A DNA stretch of 64,000 nt, from assembly GCF_009696575.1 (NCBI RefSeq), contig NZ_VULQ01000001.1, positions 124,001 to 188,000 on the forward strand, written 5' to 3'. This DNA is from Anaerococcus porci (lineage in GTDB: Bacteria > Bacillota > Clostridia > Tissierellales > Peptoniphilaceae). Shown here in pieces: positions 41,458 through 49,811 of the stretch (its first letter is position 1; every line of letters begins with the position of its first letter). The position numbers were made by a program, and so were the translations under genes. Below the pieces are notes generated by a model, which made no database searches, was not told the origin of the DNA, and saw nothing but the letters and a program-made list of their open reading frames with translations.

Positions 41458-41496
41458 AAAAAAGTCTTATGTAAACAAGACGTTTGCATAAGACTT
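41458..41496 (-). terminator. Terminator of the V/A-ATP synthase operon
   Basis: Perfect 10-bp arms AAGTCTTATG (41496-41487) and CATAAGACTT (41471-41462) with a T-run, overlapping the ntpD stop codon. Confidence 0.85.
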
Positions 41497-42121
41497 ACTT
41501 ATTATCAACTTTTCTATCTTTTATCATTTTTGTTTTAGAAAATTCTTCTCTTTCTTTTTCTTCAATTTGACTAGAAATAGATTTAATTGTTTTGTTATAA
41601 TTTGGTATTTGAACTTTTTCAAGACTATTAACCTTTTTTGAGGTTTTTTTAATCTCTTTATCAAGATTATTAATAGTTGTATCAAGCTCAGCTAACTTAT
41701 ACACCTTACTCTTTAATTCATTTAATGAAATTAAGGCTAGGTCAAATAAAGAGTTTGTTAAACTTAATGAATAAGATAAATCAAGCTTTTTTTCTTCAAA
41801 ACTTATCTCATAAATTTTCGTTTGCATAAATTTTCTATTTATTAAAGATATTGAATTATCTAATGGTACTGATAAAGCTATTGATTTAAGCTTATCCTCC
41901 CCTATAGTTGCACTTGCTTTTTTAATTGCTTTTTTTACATCTTTAATTGATGAATTTACTATATCATTCAACTCGTTTCTTTGATCAATTTTAGCATTAT
42001 ACTGACTAATAAGAGCCTTTCTCTTCTTATCTAAAATATCATAGCCCTCATTGATAAGGTCAAGCTGGGCTTTAGCTTTCATTAGATTGGCTTTGGTTGG
42101 TGCAAGCTTAGTCTCTGTCAT
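41495..42121 (-). CDS. ntpD: V/A-type ATP synthase subunit D
   Basis: 208 residues from ATG 42121 (GGTGG upstream); the frame extends to 42157 inside ntpB but the [15 protein letters not shown] start of the family lies right after this ATG. Subunit D is the coiled-coil central rotor shaft inside the A3B3 head. Long N- and C-terminal helices and a RNELN turn are visible. It overlaps ntpB by 14 nt and closes the operon. Confidence 0.92.
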
Positions 42122-43487
42122 TATTTCCACCCAAGAATTTTGCTTTATTTTTATCACTTACTCTATGAAGTTGATCTAGAGGAAGTATTTTAAGAATATC
42201 CCAACCTAAATCTAATGATTCTTCTATAGACCTATTTTCGTATTGATCTTGGCTTAAGAACTTATTTTCAAATATCTTACCAAATTTCAAAAATTTCTTA
42301 TCAACATCTGAAAGATCATCCTCACCAACTATTTGTGAAATATTTCTAATTTCTTGAACCTTAGAATAAGATTCATATAACTGATTCATCAAATCATCAT
42401 GATCATCCCTTGTATATCCTTCTCCTATCCCATCTTTCATAAGTCTTGATAAAGATGGAAGAACATTTATTGGAGGATATATCCCTTTTTGATTAAGTCC
42501 CCTATCTACTACAATTTGACCTTCTGTGATATATCCAGTCAAATCTGGAATAGGATGGGTTATATCGTCATTTGGCATAGTTAGTATAGGGATTAAGGTT
42601 ACTGATCCATTTATCCCTTTTATCATACCAGCTCTTTCATATAAAGAGGCTAAATCTGAGTAAAGATATCCTGGATAACCCTTACGTGATGGCACCTCTT
42701 GCCTAATAGATGACACTTCACGTAAAGCTTCTGCATATGATGTAATATCAGTTATTATTACTAAAACATGTTTATTTTTTTCAAATGCTAAGTATTCTGC
42801 AGCTGTTAGAGCACATTTTGGTGTTATAAGTCTTTCCATTATTGGATCATCCGCAAGATTTTCATACATAACTACCTTATTTTTTACACCTGCCTTGGTA
42901 AAGGCATCATCAAAGAACATTGCTTCATCCTTTTTTATCCCCATTGCCGCAAATACAAAACAAAAGTCTTCATCGGTCTTAAGTTTTGCTTGTCGTACAA
43001 TTTGGGCAGCTATTTCGTTATGTGGCATTCCAGATCCTGAAAATATAGGTAGTTTTTGACCACGTATTAATGTTGTTAGTATATCAATTGATGATATACC
43101 TGTTTGGATAAAATTTCTTGGATATTGTCTTGATACAGGATTTAAAGGTTTACCTTCTACAGAATAAAACTTATCAGAGTAGATTTCTCCACCATTATCA
43201 ATTGGTCTTGCTACACCATTAAAAGTTCTGCCTAATATTGACTCATTTAATGGAATCTCTAAGGGTTTTTCATTAAATTCAACAACTATATCATAAATTG
43301 AGAAATTTTGAGTATCACCAAAAACTTCAACTGTTACTGTGTCTTCATCTATTTTTACAACTTGTCCTATAAATTCTTGACCAAGTGTATTTATCTTTAC
43401 CACAGCACTATAAGCAATATCTGAAACTTTTTCTAACTCTATAATTGATGCTTCTATTTTTTTAATTCTTGTATATTCTTTTATCAT
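42108..43487 (-). CDS. ntpB: V/A-type ATP synthase subunit B
   Basis: 459 residues, the non-catalytic partner of the A3B3 head. As expected for subunit B, the P-loop is changed ([14 protein letters not shown]). [31 protein letters not shown] and [18 protein letters not shown] follow. It overlaps ntpA by 4 nt. Confidence 0.96.
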
Positions 43488-45235
43488 AGTTCACCCTCTT
43501 TTAGACTTTGAAAATAAGAACGGATATTGTTATTTAACTCAATAAATTTATCTGTTTCATCATTTTTAATATTATATTTCATGCCATTAAGCTCTGAAAT
43601 TAAGTCTTTATTGTAAATGTCCTTATAAGATATTCCCCTATCAATAGCTTCAAGGGAATAGTTATAATAAGCTTCTATAGCCTTTAGCATTAAAACTTGC
43701 TTTTCTAATGGCACATACTTATCTATATCATTAAAAGCATTTTGTTGAAGATAGGCAATTTTTATAATACTTGCCACATCTAATAGATTTTTTTGCTTAT
43801 CACTTAAAGCATCTTTTCCAACAAGCATTACTATAGATTGAAGCTTATCTTCTTCAGTAAGTATTGTCATCATCCTATTTCTTAACCCTATAATATCTTC
43901 ACCTGTCAAGTTTTCATAATAATCTCCCATTTGGTCAAGGTAATTAGAATAAGAAGTAAGCCAATTTATAGCAGGGTAGTGTCTTGAGTAAGCAAGATTT
44001 TTATCCAGACCTAAAAATACATTTACACTTCTTTTTGTATTTTCAGTTACTGGCTCCGAGAAATCTCCTCCTGTTGGAGATACAGCACCAATTAGAGTAA
44101 CTGAGCCCTCACTACCATTTAAATTTATAAAATCTCCTGCCCTTTCATAAAATTGAGAAAGTCTTGAACCTAGATAAGCTGGGTATCCCTCTTCAGCGGG
44201 AATTTCTTCAAGTCTTGCAGATATTTCTCTTAAGGCCTCTGCCCATCTTGATGTTGAATCTGCCATAAGAGCTACATCATAGCCCATATCCCTAAAATAT
44301 TCCGCCATGGTTATTCCAGTATAAATACTAGCCTCTCTTGCTGCTACTGGCATATTTGAGGTATTTGCTATAAGAATAGTCCTTTCCATTAGACCTCTTC
44401 CAGTATTTGGATCTATTAGATCTGGAAAGTCTTCAAGTACTTGGGTCATTTCATTTCCACGTTCACCACAACCTATATATATAATTATATCAGCGTCTGA
44501 ATATTGGGCCAATTGGTGTTGAAGCATTGTTTTTCCTGTACCAAATCCTCCTGGAATTGCTACAGTTCCTCCCTTTGCAACTGGAAAGAAAATATCTAAA
44601 ACTCTTTGTCCTGTCACTAAAAGCTTATTTAAAGCTTTTGACTCTTTAACAGGTCTTTGAACTCTTACAGGCCAATATTGATAAAGTTTTAATTCTTCTA
44701 TACCGTCATTTGTTTTAACCTTTACAATAGTATCTTCTAGTTTATAAAAACCATCATCTGATATCTCTATAACTTCACCATTAACATTTGACATTATTCT
44801 ATGCTCTATTATTGGACTTTCTTTACAAGTTGCATAAATATCGCCTATTTTAATTAAGTCGCCTATTTTGACTTTAATTTTTATATCCCACAGTTTTTCT
44901 TCATCAAGATTTGATAAACCTAAACCAGAAGGAATAAAAGCTCCATTTTTTGCAGCAATCCTATCTAATGGTCTTTGAATACCATCAAACATATTTCCAA
45001 TCATACCAGGTCCAAGCCTTACTGATAAAGGTCTATGTGTAGGGACTATTTCATCACCTACCTTAAGACCTGAACTATCTTCATAAACTTGTATTACACC
45101 CATATTGCCATCTATAGATACTACTTCACCTATAAGTTTTAAAGAACCTACATTAACCATTTCTCTAACTTTAAGTTTACTAGCATCTTTTGCTACTATT
45201 ACAGGTCCATTTATAGATTTAATTCTTGGAGTCAT
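43484..45235 (-). CDS. ntpA: V/A-type ATP synthase catalytic subunit A
   Basis: 583 residues from ATG 45235, preceded by GGAGG; the open frame to 45301 runs inside ntpE and is not family-like. Catalytic head subunit: [11 protein letters not shown] start, the A-subunit bulge domain, P-loop [46 protein letters not shown] and [19 protein letters not shown]. Normal length. It overlaps ntpE by 17 nt. Confidence 0.96.
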
Positions 45236-45839
45236 ATAATTCCTCCATTTCTTTTTTGAAATTTTCAGCAATTTCTTTATAAAATTCGCTACCAATTTCA
45301 TACTTATAATTGTCTAGTTTCTTTTCTAAAGAAAAATTATATTGATAGGTAAAATCTTTATTTCTTATAATAAAGCCACCAATCTTACTATCATCCATAG
45401 TTTCGGTATCAAAATCAAATAGTTCTTTGTCAGATTCTCTAACCGCTAAAATCAGAGAATCATCATCCTTAGATAAGCTTTCAAATATTTTTGTAGCCTC
45501 TATTTTTAATTTTTCTTTGTATTCATCACTTTTACTATAGTCAATAAGCTCTAATCTAATTTCATCAATTAGTTTATTTAAGAGTTCTTCCTTAAATTTA
45601 TTATAAAGTGTTTTTTCGTGCTGAGATATATTTGCTATTTTTTCATTTTTTCTTGAATTAGCAAATTCTTCTCTTTTTTCCATGTACTTATTATATTCAT
45701 TTTCTAGCTTTATTTTTATTTCACTTAAAGCTTTAGATGAATTTTCTGTAGAATTATAAAGCTGTTTCTCGCTTTTTTTCTTTTCATTAGACCAAACCAT
45801 CTTTCTAAAGCTTGATATCTTTGAACTTAAATCTAGCAT
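45219..45839 (-). CDS. ntpE: V/A-type ATP synthase subunit E (peripheral stalk)
   Basis: 206 residues: a highly charged N-terminal helix up to about residue 110 (ENEYNKYMEKREEFANSRKN), then the globular C-terminal domain with DSKIGGFIIRNKDFTYQYNFS. Subunit E pairs with subunit G/H in each peripheral stalk and caps the head. It lies between ntpF and ntpA. No separate G/H gene is present, so its partner is probably the coiled-coil tail of the gene at 47958-48830. Confidence 0.85.
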   Translation of the reverse strand: MLDLSSKISSFRKMVWSNEKKKSEKQLYNSTENSSKALSEIKIKLENEYNKYMEKREEFANSRKNEKIANISQHEKTLYNKFKEELLNKLIDEIRLELIDYSKSDEYKEKLKIEATKIFESLSKDDDSLILAVRESDKELFDFDTETMDDSKIGGFIIRNKDFTYQYNFSLEKKLDNYKYEIGSEFYKEIAENFKKEMEELYDSKN

Positions 45840-45852
45840 ATTATATTCCTTA

Positions 45853-46089
45853 CTAATCTAAAACTACTATCAAGGGTTTGTCCTTGATTTGTCTAAAAGA
45901 TTCAACCTCATCTTTAATAAGTTCATAACAATCTTTTGAAAATATTATTAATGCTGTTTCCTTATTTCTAGAATATTGATTGAAATTTTTTAATATTTGA
46001 TCATTTTTGTCGATAAGGCAGCCATCTATACCTCCGAGTCTAAACCCTAGAAGTAGTGACATATCCTTAGTTATAATATTTGCTTTCAT
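45853..46089 (-). CDS. ntpF: V/A-type ATP synthase subunit F
   Basis: 78 residues, shorter than the usual 100 or so. Subunit F sits on the central shaft D and modulates ATPase activity. The N-terminal LLLGFRLGGIDGCLI and the central TALIIFSKDCYELI strand-turn are family features; the C-terminal helix that reaches into the head in relatives is reduced here. One base separates it from ntpK. Confidence 0.82.
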   Translation of the reverse strand: MKANIITKDMSLLLGFRLGGIDGCLIDKNDQILKNFNQYSRNKETALIIFSKDCYELIKDEVESFRQIKDKPLIVVLD

Positions 46090-46090
46090 T

Positions 46091-46516
46091 TTATGCGTAA
46101 AGAATTAATATAGAAATAATTACACCAAAGATAGCAATACCTTCAGCAAGTCCAACAAAGATTATTGTTCTACCCAAAATAGATGCATCTTCTGAAATAG
46201 CTCCTAAAGCGGCTGAACCTACTTGACCTACAGCATATCCAGTTCCTATAGTTGCAAGACCTGTTGATAAAGCAGCACCTATATATTTAAGACCACTTGC
46301 AGCCATTGCTTCATTTCCATTTGCTGCAGCCTTAACTCCATCTGGTAAAATCAAGACTAAAATCATAACCATGATTGGAACAAATGTTGATAAATTAATT
46401 TTTAAGGCTTTTTTTATTTTTTCCTTTGATGGGTCCTCATTGTTTTTCATTAAGTATAAACCTGAATAAATTGTCATTGTTACACATAAAAGTGCTAAAA
46501 TTGTTACTAAAATCAT
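46091..46516 (-). CDS. ntpK: V/A-type ATP synthase subunit K (membrane ring)
   Basis: 141 residues, four membrane helices. The second helical pair carries GYAVGQVGSAALGAI and the ion-binding Glu125 in GLAEGIAIFG. The first pair has no carboxylate and lacks the glycine pattern, so one ion site per four helices is expected, lowering the ion/ATP ratio. AAGGAG precedes ATG. It follows I-C by ten bases. Confidence 0.9.
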   Translation of the reverse strand: MILVTILALLCVTMTIYSGLYLMKNNEDPSKEKIKKALKINLSTFVPIMVMILVLILPDGVKAAANGNEAMAASGLKYIGAALSTGLATIGTGYAVGQVGSAALGAISEDASILGRTIIFVGLAEGIAIFGVIISILILYA

Positions 46517-46526
46517 ATTTTTCTCC

Positions 46527-47945
46527 TTATAATTTACTTATTGGACTAAATTTATGTCCATCTCCCTTGTAATATTTACTAAACATTTCGTAAAATTCAA
46601 GCCTTAAGCCTTGGATAAATACTATCATTCCCTCTAGACCTATAATTAGAATATTACCTAAAATCAATATAATTATTCCTATAAAGCCTCCACCGACAAG
46701 CTTACTAATAACTTCAAATGCCATATATAAACCTACGTGGTTTATTGCAAAGGCTCCAACCCTTGTAAAAGAAACAAGATTTGAAAATACTGATAAAAGT
46801 GCTTCTATTATAGAAAAAGAACTTTCTACGTAATAATCTGAACCTGATTGATCATATAAAGGACTAACACTAAGTAATATTCTAGTGATAGGTTGCTTAA
46901 ATATCATCATAACTATAGATAAGATTAAAAGTATTAATGATATTATCATTGGTAGTGGATTAATATTTACTATATTAAGTATTATCATAATAAATGATAT
47001 CATCATTATGAGTCCTGCTATTCCCTCTTTACCAAAAATACCCTCTTCTAAATCTTTTTGTTTGACTAACTTATTATATATTCCGATAAGATATGATATT
47101 ATTAATAAAATAATACCAAATCCTACAGATGCTGCTAAAACTTTTATTATATTATCAAATGGTTTTATAAGCAGAGTTGGTATCAAAGTTTCAATTCCAA
47201 AGAATGAACCATACATAAGACCAAAAATTGATGCTGATATTCCAATCCTTCTAATAAGTTGACCAAAAACTTCATTTTTCTTTCCTATAAAGAAGCTAGC
47301 TAATATAAAAACTAAACCTTGTCCTAGATCACCGAACATCATTCCATATAAAAGCATATATGTAATGGCAAAAAATCCTGTAGGATCTACTTCATTATAA
47401 TTTGGAGCACCATACATATTTACTAAAAATTCAAATGGCTTAAATATTTTATTATTCTTCAGCTTAGTAGGTGGATTGGCTATTGTTTCCTTATTTTTTT
47501 TTTGGTCGATCAAGCTGTCTTCATACTTATCGACTGTATCTTTTAATATCTTAAATTTTGATTCAGGAACCCAGCCTGAAAGGTAAAAATATTTATTTCC
47601 TCTAAGCATCTTTTCTTTAAGTTTTGAAGATTTTTTATAATAATCTATTGTTTTTGGGATATTTTCCAAATCAGCTAAATTATCATTTTTTATCTTACTG
47701 AGGCTCTTATCTAATTCTTTTAGTTTCCTTTTATTCTCTTCATACTCTTTTCTAAGACTTTCCATATCTGTCCCATTTTCTATCTCTTTATCAATAAAAC
47801 CCAAGGAAGATATTGTTCTATTTACTTCATCCTCAACATTTTTAGGATATACTAAAAGATAATCCTCATTTGACTGATCTATATTCTTACTTTTTGGACT
47901 ATTTTTATATTTATCTTTAAAACCTAATTTTTCTAATAATTTCAT
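46527..47945 (-). CDS. ntpI: V/A-type ATP synthase subunit I, C-terminal part (split gene)
   Basis: 472 residues. A leader of 26 charged residues is followed by the second strand of the cytosolic domain (DYLLVYPKNVEDEV), a coil, YFYLSGWVPESKF, NPPTKLKNNKIFKPFEF, and the membrane domain with about eight helices from residue 190, including MMFGDLGQGL and the essential arginine Arg395 in SFTRVGAFAINHVG. It forms the half-channels beside the K ring. The normal N-terminal 185 residues of subunit I are missing and are encoded by the preceding gene. A strong AAGGAGG before ATG shows it is a true separate gene. Confidence 0.9.
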   Translation of the reverse strand: MKLLEKLGFKDKYKNSPKSKNIDQSNEDYLLVYPKNVEDEVNRTISSLGFIDKEIENGTDMESLRKEYEENKRKLKELDKSLSKIKNDNLADLENIPKTIDYYKKSSKLKEKMLRGNKYFYLSGWVPESKFKILKDTVDKYEDSLIDQKKNKETIANPPTKLKNNKIFKPFEFLVNMYGAPNYNEVDPTGFFAITYMLLYGMMFGDLGQGLVFILASFFIGKKNEVFGQLIRRIGISASIFGLMYGSFFGIETLIPTLLIKPFDNIIKVLAASVGFGIILLIISYLIGIYNKLVKQKDLEEGIFGKEGIAGLIMMISFIMIILNIVNINPLPMIISLILLILSIVMMIFKQPITRILLSVSPLYDQSGSDYYVESSFSIIEALLSVFSNLVSFTRVGAFAINHVGLYMAFEVISKLVGGGFIGIIILILGNILIIGLEGMIVFIQGLRLEFYEMFSKYYKGDGHKFSPISKL

Positions 47946-47957
47946 ATAACCTCCTTT

Positions 47958-48830
47958 CTATTTAATTATCTTTTGGAAGAAGTCTTTTATAATGCTATCT
48001 TTCTTATCTTTATAAATTTTTTCAGTTTCAGACTTTTGTTGTTTATAAAATTCTTCTATATTTTTAGATTCTACATTTGCCTTACTTAGAATATCATCAT
48101 ACAATTTAGACGAATCATTTTTTGTCTTTTTATCATACTCCTCATTAAGTTCTATGCTGATTTTATTAACATTGGCCTTCTCATTTTCTAAAATTTTATC
48201 CGTATCATCCCTAAGTTTTTTAGTTTCTTTATCAATATTATAGATATCTCCAAGAGCCTGCTTATTTATTTCAATATCAGGATCATTTTCTTTTAAGTGA
48301 ATAATTAATGATGGTATTGATTCATAATTATTTTTTAATATAAATCTACCGTCCTTGCTTACTTCACCAAGTCTATACGAAAAATAATTAAGTTTTTGTA
48401 CCTTATTTATATCAATATCTTCATTTTCTAATGCTCTTAAATTTCTAATGTATTCTTCAAGTTTTATATTTCTTTCTTCTAACTTTTTCTTTTCATTAAT
48501 CTTTTCATCTAATATATTATAAAGATATTCAAGTTTTTCATTATCAATTTTTTTCCCATGAGTAGAATCTTTTAAGTTAAGAAACTCTTTCATATCTTCA
48601 AGTTTCTTTAAAAAATTAGGGTCTAATTTTTCAAAAGATTCAATATTATTGAAATCTTCAGTTTTTTCAATATTTGCTTCATTTGAAGTTATTGAAAATT
48701 CCCTATTTTGAATCTGTCTTAAAGCATCAACTTGGTCAAATTCATCAATTTCTATTAAATCTTCTAAAAAACTATCTAGATTATCTAACCTTGCCATTAT
48801 ATTGACTAGATGCATTTTTTCTACAGCCAT
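47958..48830 (-). CDS. V/A-type ATP synthase subunit I N-terminal part fused to a G/H-like coiled coil
   Basis: 290 residues, no membrane helix. Residues 1-185 match the start of subunit I in clostridia: AVEKMHLVNIMARLDNLDSF, a long coil, then KLNYFSYRLGEVSKDGRF and SLIIHLKEND. Exactly where subunit I should continue, the chain turns into 90 residues of charged coiled coil (ETKKLRDDTDKILENEKANV ... SIIKDFFQKIIK) that look like a G/H peripheral stalk subunit. No separate G/H gene exists in the operon. The I match is firm; the G/H assignment is inference. Four bases lie between it and ntpC. Confidence 0.75.
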   Translation of the reverse strand: MAVEKMHLVNIMARLDNLDSFLEDLIEIDEFDQVDALRQIQNREFSITSNEANIEKTEDFNNIESFEKLDPNFLKKLEDMKEFLNLKDSTHGKKIDNEKLEYLYNILDEKINEKKKLEERNIKLEEYIRNLRALENEDIDINKVQKLNYFSYRLGEVSKDGRFILKNNYESIPSLIIHLKENDPDIEINKQALGDIYNIDKETKKLRDDTDKILENEKANVNKISIELNEEYDKKTKNDSSKLYDDILSKANVESKNIEEFYKQQKSETEKIYKDKKDSIIKDFFQKIIK

Positions 48831-48833
48831 AAT

Positions 48834-49811
48834 TCACCTCTCTATTATATATTTTTTCTTCTCATCTTTATCAAAACTTTCGTCAAGTTCCAAAAGACTA
48901 ATTAGATTTCTATTAGATATGTCTATCATATCAACAATATAGATTAGTTTTAATAAATCATATTTAGAATTAGCTAATTTTTTTGAAAGTTTTGATAAAT
49001 AATCTTCTTTTGCCTTATAAAAAGTTTTACTAGTTAAAAATAAATCTTTATATTGACTTCCTATTATAAAGTCTTTGAAATTAATTAAATTCATATTAGA
49101 TAATTTTATCAAGTCATCAGACTTAAGATATTTACCTCCTTCAATTAAATAGTTAAACATTTCATTACTATTTATATCAAAGAATCTTATAAGTCTATAA
49201 AGCATCTCTATATTAAATATATCTATTTTTTTTCCTATAAAGTCTCTTAACTCATCTCTTTCATTTTTAGAAAATTTAGAAATTTCTTCTAAGAGGTCCC
49301 TATAATAGAATTTATTCAAAGAATTTGAAGACAAAAATATTAATGAGCTTCTATCCACATTTTCATTTAAAAATGGGAATAAGCTCCTATAATATCTAGT
49401 ATTGTTACTTTTTAAAACAAAATCTTCAAAATCATAGTCTTCTTTTATATCAAAGGCTTTTGAAAACTTATTTTCTTTTATAATTTCCAAGCTATCTTTT
49501 ATATGATTATTTAGCAAAGCTTGTATTATAAGCTGTAGAATTGAAATTTCATATCTAGAAATATATTTAATGAAAAATTCTTTTTCTTCACCCTTTATAA
49601 ATTTCAAAAAAGAATAAAGGTTATCGTATAAATGATTTTCAAGACCGATTTCTAAATCACTTTTACTTGTTAAAGAAGATATTTCCGGATAAAATGATTT
49701 GATAATATCAAGTTTTCTATCTGTATCATCTTCGTATAATAAATCTCTTCTAATGGTCTTATCCGGTAATTTACCTAGTTTTGCCTTTGCTTTAACTACA
49801 TAAGACTTCAT
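48834..49811 (-). CDS. ntpC: V/A-type ATP synthase subunit C
   Basis: 325 residues, all-helical, the family length. Subunit C (d in eukaryotes) is the socket linking the K ring to the D/F shaft. Family cues: an N-terminal YVVKAKAKLGKL start, EKEFFIKYISRYEISILQLI, three repeated helical bundles and a late DLLKLIYIVDMID helix close to the expected C-terminal segment. Similarity is diffuse, and operon position is a large part of the call. It lies 17 nt after miaB. Confidence 0.82.
   Translation of the reverse strand: MKSYVVKAKAKLGKLPDKTIRRDLLYEDDTDRKLDIIKSFYPEISSLTSKSDLEIGLENHLYDNLYSFLKFIKGEEKEFFIKYISRYEISILQLIIQALLNNHIKDSLEIIKENKFSKAFDIKEDYDFEDFVLKSNNTRYYRSLFPFLNENVDRSSLIFLSSNSLNKFYYRDLLEEISKFSKNERDELRDFIGKKIDIFNIEMLYRLIRFFDINSNEMFNYLIEGGKYLKSDDLIKLSNMNLINFKDFIIGSQYKDLFLTSKTFYKAKEDYLSKLSKKLANSKYDLLKLIYIVDMIDISNRNLISLLELDESFDKDEKKKYIIER

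Follow-up and report, generated by a model that had tools for sequence, protein, structure and literature searches.

A divided subunit I with a predicted stalk subunit G/H fused to its first half in a V/A-type ATPase of Anaerococcus

Where is the stalk subunit of a V/A-type rotary ATPase whose operon has no gene for it, and whose subunit I is broken into two genes? We addressed this question in a 64,000-nt stretch of Anaerococcus porci DNA (contig NZ_VULQ01000001.1, positions 124,001 to 188,000; hereafter the window), for which a first-pass annotation had proposed that a stalk subunit is welded into the arm of subunit I at the break. The set A, B, C, D, E, F, I and K is complete in one operon (Table 1), and open reading frames and family searches agreed with the annotation that C, K, F, E, A, B and D are present there and a separate G/H gene is absent. 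A whole-genome search with PF01991 did not recover the E subunit of this operon; its sole match was the E of a second operon, described below.

Table 1. Genes and parts of the fused operon, with positions in the window
Feature	Position	Strand	Description and basis
Subunit C	48834..49811	(-)	First gene of the fused operon, without a G/H gene ahead; PF01992 E 9e-26 and synteny
I-N::G fusion gene, 290 aa	47958..48830	(-)	Subunit I arm, first half, and predicted stalk subunit G/H; ORF, arm and G/H profiles
I-N half-arm, residues 1-190	48261..48830	(-)	Probable half of proximal lobe, outgoing helix and half of distal lobe; A5 arm profile
Predicted G/H stalk domain, residues 193-290	47961..48254	(-)	Position-chosen G/H profile E 9.2e-9; A1 profile 58 bits
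Spacer, 12 bases	47946..47957	(-)	Carries the ribosome-binding site AAAGGAGG for I-C
I-C gene, 472 aa	46527..47945	(-)	Second arm half and whole membrane domain; ORF, PF01496 E 1.4e-28, A2 profile 191-645
Docking half-arm, I-C residues 25-160	47466..47873	(-)	Probable second half of distal lobe, return helix and second half of proximal lobe
Subunit K (membrane ring)	46091..46516	(-)	PF00137 E 2.6e-15
Subunit F, short (78 aa)	45853..46089	(-)	PF01990 E 8.9e-10
Subunit E	45219..45839	(-)	Would pair with the fused G domain; PF01991 E 0.0012 (below gathering score), operon position, orthology
Subunit A	43484..45301	(-)	ORF and orthology; translation probably begins downstream of the listed start
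Subunit B	42108..43487	(-)	ORF and orthology
Subunit D	41495..42157	(-)	Orthology in relatives

The position of the break was established by profile alignment. The arm profile (16 sequences) matches the 290-aa product, I-N::G, from position 1 to ~190, after which residues 193–290 match positions 5–102 of 105 of a G/H profile, so that the linker between half-arm and G is a few residues only. The 472-aa product, I-C, picks up at position 191/194 of the I profile and extends to 645 of 651; by these alignments and a PF01496 match above the cut-off, it has the membrane domain with its conserved C-terminal region. Because I-N ends at ~190 and I-C starts at 191/194, no part of subunit I was lost or repeated at the break, and the I-like pieces total ~640 residues, compared with 641–667 in the intact relatives examined. 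Subunit I (PF01496) is accordingly not one chain here, being encoded by two genes that meet at about arm-profile position 190. The annotation had read the first gene as the start of subunit I followed by coiled coil and the second as resuming the same domain and holding the membrane part, the pieces together having the size of a whole subunit I, and the alignments upheld this reading.

Of 18 species compared, 11 have the two genes in a common frame, and in the window a single TAG and 12 bases separate them, a layout that would allow stop-codon readthrough into one long I-N::G::I-C chain. Such readthrough is extremely unlikely, as the frames differ in the other 7 of 18 species, the listed gaps run from −44 to 102 bases (counted from first start codons, which are partly uncertain) with various stop codons, and in the window I-C has a ribosome-binding site of its own, AAAGGAGG, 4 bases ahead of its ATG. 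We rejected the single long chain since the shared frame is not conserved, and hereafter consider I-N::G and I-C as two proteins, of an estimated 34 and 53 kDa by residue number.

The coiled-coil tail was then compared with the genes of canonical G-C-I-K-F-E-A-B-D operons from the same family/order (29 loci). These hold the closest orthologues of every subunit, in the same order from C on, but have a separate G/H gene before C and an intact I of 641–663 aa. A gene of 96–171 aa lies directly before C in all 29 intact loci with a readable region, a count that leaves out L043, cut off where its contig stops, and loci added afterwards. A position-chosen G/H profile, built from seven stand-alone genes that the fusion had missed at E 1e-3 and excluding the fusion itself, matched residues 192–288 at E 9.2e-9 over profile positions 4–100 of 108 (97 of 108 positions); the next-best ORF of the window was subunit E, at E 0.0055. 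With the all-29 G/H profile, the E values were 2.1e-18 for the fusion and 1.2e-4 for subunit E. A chance coiled-coil match was ruled out by the seven-gene profile with the window's own ORFs as background. The tail has the length (~100 residues) and the homology of a stalk subunit G/H, as a domain and not as a separate protein, and on this profile evidence we assign residues 193–290 to a stalk subunit G/H that is almost complete.

The name G/H is based on operon position, length and weak family-model support combined. The stand-alone genes match PRK08404 subunit H weakly (10 of 21, best E 1.5e-4), PF16999 V-ATPase_G_2 likewise (7 of 21, best E 0.026) and F-type subunit B models (PRK05759.1-2; 6 of 21, best E 1e-4); the scores of other coiled-coil families are about as good as those of the G/H models. 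At E 1, the 290-aa protein matches no Pfam family and none of NCBIfam's G/H models; the best NCBIfam match to residues 201–283 is a subunit E model (E 0.001). Searches of the PDB with the G/H, fusion and arm profiles found no V-ATPase G: the G/H profile returned just coiled-coil noise in the form of apolipoprotein matches, and the arm match to Thermus I was partial and weak. These results leave some room for the view that residues 193–290 are a generic charged coiled coil and that the true G is absent, has diverged beyond recognition or is supplied by the second operon, all the more as coiled-coil proteins such as apolipoprotein weakly match any coiled-coil profile and subunit E itself reached E 0.0055. 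We nevertheless regard this view as most improbable, because the match runs from end to end of a profile built without the fusion protein and because the fused operons examined for it have no G/H gene before C. Moreover, the best match of a 21-sequence profile (A1) was the fused domain in each of 31 of 31 Anaerococcus genomes, in which the same search found no separate G of the fused-operon family below 1e-3 and nothing else below that value.

A stand-alone G/H gene elsewhere in the genome had been named in the annotation as counting against a weld. One is indeed present, so the idea that the genome has no such gene was rejected; it lies inside a complete second V-ATPase operon of another subfamily (G-I-K-E-C-F-A-B-D; G000:C23, locus L092 4618–13019), and for the fused operon itself the expectation held, as it has none. 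The G of the second V-ATPase could in principle be borrowed by the fused enzyme, which is a point against the fusion replacing G. All three genomes in which the second operon was examined have it complete, and 31 of 31 have a second C subunit; the G match at G096:C6 is likewise the G of a second-type operon. The K of the second operon is 154 aa long with two ATP-synt_C stretches. Its gene order presumably resembles that of the Enterococcus hirae ntp operon, and the E. hirae Na+ V-ATPase, in which I is one chain, G is separate and there are two EG stalks, resembles the second operon and not the fused one. The I profile matches this enzyme (8wci_P) over profile positions 1–646.

Relatives were examined for the same break, a check that the annotation had proposed. 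All 31 Anaerococcus genomes, the source genome included, have a match to I-N::G along almost its entire length; the copy in the draft G014 carries in-frame stops. A family search (130 genomes, 90 with a match) also found I-N::G in G095 and G096 (genus g41). In G092 (genus g38), a genome 81 % complete, I-N lies at a contig end and no G precedes C, the gene ahead of C being what we take to be a MiaB-like one; the G profile has no match there at 0.01, and I-C is cut by the contig end and not scorable. Elsewhere in the family, good matches mostly fall in frames of 643–671 aa, that is, an intact I, and G143 is broken. In a sample of the class, 82 of 391 genomes had a G/H match at 1e-5, which fell inside a longer gene just in the two Anaerococcus members of the sample and in frames of at most 198 aa in the other 80. 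A tree of A and B had weak nodes and placed the two g41 genomes apart, G096 with G017 (support 0.99) and G095 with G092 (0.55).

Since a complete second enzyme exists in the three genomes examined, and a second C in all 31, the fused operon might be a decaying or remodelled spare while the ordinary V-ATPase does the work. This is very unlikely. All nine genes are present in each of the 30 fused loci that are long enough, the window included, some being split or short in drafts, and dN/dS is 0.012–0.29 for I-N, G, the docking half and the membrane part in 11 species pairs; these segments are under purifying selection. Stops or frameshifts interrupt I-N::G or I-C in three drafts (G009, G014 and G030; loci L045, L048 and L051). 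In the same drafts E is split (L045) or D is short (L048 and L051), which suggests sequencing error in place of decay. For the break itself, sequencing error or a pseudogene was ruled out by its presence in 31 of 31 Anaerococcus genomes, G095 and G096 and by dN/dS. Profile homology, a seamless break and conservation support the weld proposed in the annotation, with two amendments: the genome has another stand-alone G in its second operon, and some relatives carry the second arm half twice, as described below. The fused form is a new variation on the V/A-ATPase stator, present in every Anaerococcus genome examined.

With a probability of roughly 0.8, we propose that the operon encodes a functional rotary ATPase of the V/A type: subunit I (a) would consist of two chains, the first of them continuing covalently into stalk subunit G, the G helix would pair with NtpE and the arm would be rebuilt by pairing. 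Arm reassembly, E–G pairing and function of the fused enzyme are what we infer from sequence. I-N::G would give the N-terminal halves of the arm and I-C the complementary halves together with the membrane domain, and non-covalent pairing of I-N with I-C would restore the two-lobed arm. The G helix would leave I-N at the loop between two strands of the distal lobe, and the fused G part would pair with NtpE into a stalk reaching the top of A3B3. The lobe names used for I-N and the docking half-arm (Table 1) are our own reading, with landmarks for I-N taken from the Thermus lobes as given in the available text of PMC7367684.

The Thermus thermophilus V/A-ATPase, as described in the accessible parts of two reports, offers the closest point of reference for this arrangement: the subunits are the same, and G here starts at what would be the stalk-binding lobe, but the Thermus I is one chain and its G is a separate protein used twice (PMC7367684, PMC5758568). 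The coiled coil of Thermus subunit I has kinks at residues 119 and 246 (PMC7367684). Position 231 of the I profile aligns to Thermus residue 214, so that, by extrapolation, the break falls near Thermus residue 173, within the distal lobe. The lobe from which the G helix would exit is the one that binds the distal stalk in Thermus. There the stalk on the arm tip is EG1, and the stalk-tip contacts are flexible in the maps (PMC7367684, PMC5758568); the contacts by which both stalks join the a/I arm are flexible and weakly resolved (PMC5758568).

The arm also bears on how many fused chains each enzyme holds. In 9 of 31 Anaerococcus genomes and in G095, the second arm half is present in tandem duplicate in I-C, which measures 585–687 aa with two docking halves versus 453–477 aa with one. 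The other 22 genomes, the source species included, have a single docking half (three of the 22 are broken drafts). Outside the fused clade, 57 genomes had a clear match (94 matching genomes minus the 31, G092, G095, G096 and three weak coiled-coil matches), and none of the 57 had two docking matches in one frame. In a tree of docking halves, measured in I-C of 27 fused genomes, the nine species contribute two copies each, all of which group together (bootstrap 97; 65 for the first copies, 69 for the second), and the two G095 copies form a clade of their own (bootstrap 92). The two separate clades suggest at least two independent duplications. A single ancestral doubling followed by losses was rejected, a tree with all first copies together giving AU p 0.0018, a result to be read with the caveat that gene conversion between docking copies could mimic two duplications. 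The first docking copy evolves faster in amino acids than the second in 5 of 5 double-dock pairs (dN/dS 0.115–0.290), and in G095 it has lost part of a motif; both observations weigh against the proposed arrangement. In L073 and L078, I-C has an N-terminal stretch of ~88 residues ahead of the first docking half.

Each genome has one clear I-N::G match. Two docking halves alongside one such match suggest two I-N::G chains per double-dock I-C, one for each of two stalks, and double-dock species therefore likely have two I-N::G chains per membrane subunit, as predicted from these domain counts. As most genomes of the genus have a single docking half, two I-N::G chains are not needed everywhere; in single-dock species a second one could be held through its G part alone, or there may be one fused stalk only. 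The latter case would amount to a single-stalk V/A-ATPase, with one I-N::G per enzyme forming the distal stalk and the second stalk lost or built otherwise. Such an enzyme would be expected to show just what 22 of 31 genomes have, one docking half, together with one clear I-N::G match per genome and no other G of the fused-operon family. We hold it to be unlikely, as docking doubling apparently arose twice, suggesting pressure to seat two fused chains, and known A/V enzymes have two stalks (PMC6131620, in its available text).

Somewhat less likely than not is a general form of the two-chain arrangement, in which one membrane subunit of a fused V/A-ATPase would bear two I-N::G chains, each completing an arm and carrying a stalk of its own, and the number of docking half-arms in I-C would set the number of stalks. 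Similar two-arm solutions would then have arisen separately, as an arm-only paralogue of I in genus g10 and, in G223, as a fusion of a whole arm with G that accompanies an intact I. The g10 paralogue, of 344 aa, is an extra gene between C and I in 3 of 3 genomes (L038 5703–6737, L099 4964–5998 and L100 9905–10939), with two species 76–77 % identical to the third. G247 was rejected as a further arm-only case, its frames stopping at contig ends and two near-alike copies suggesting mixed strains. In G223, a 468-aa protein (L095 5777–7183) comprises a complete arm (residues 1–330) and a G/H domain (370–467, E 5.2e-9), and coexists with an intact I and a stand-alone G. The three genus mates of G223 examined have no arm–G fusion, just a stand-alone G. 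The G223 weld is separate from that of I-N::G; it lies at the proximal arm end, not in the distal lobe, and is found in one genome only.

A natural fusion of two stator subunits is also known from the mycobacterial F-ATP synthase, where b-delta carries a duplicated domain attached to the catalytic head (PMC8617483). That enzyme differs in being F-type and made of other subunits, its duplicated domain binds alpha subunits and not a second fused chain, and the accessible part of the report mentions no split a-subunit (PMC8617483). In the open-access literature, covered at the level of titles and abstract openings and with subscription papers mostly outside it, we found no split or G-fused subunit I and no description of an Anaerococcus V-ATPase. 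With the stalk welded to the arm and the free joint shifted to mid-arm, the fused enzyme would provide a natural test of where the elastic compliance of a rotary motor must sit. Stalk and arm numbers would become readable from sequence, and the stoichiometry testable, through the doubled docking halves, and the split into two chains, one of them fused to G, gives a ready handle for crosslinking and stoichiometry work.

Subunit F is also unusual in length, at 76–81 aa in most fused genomes versus 101–107 aa in most intact relatives, and may have lost its C-terminal part in the fused clade. A short F (83 aa) also occurs in two relatives with an intact I, L058 and L059.
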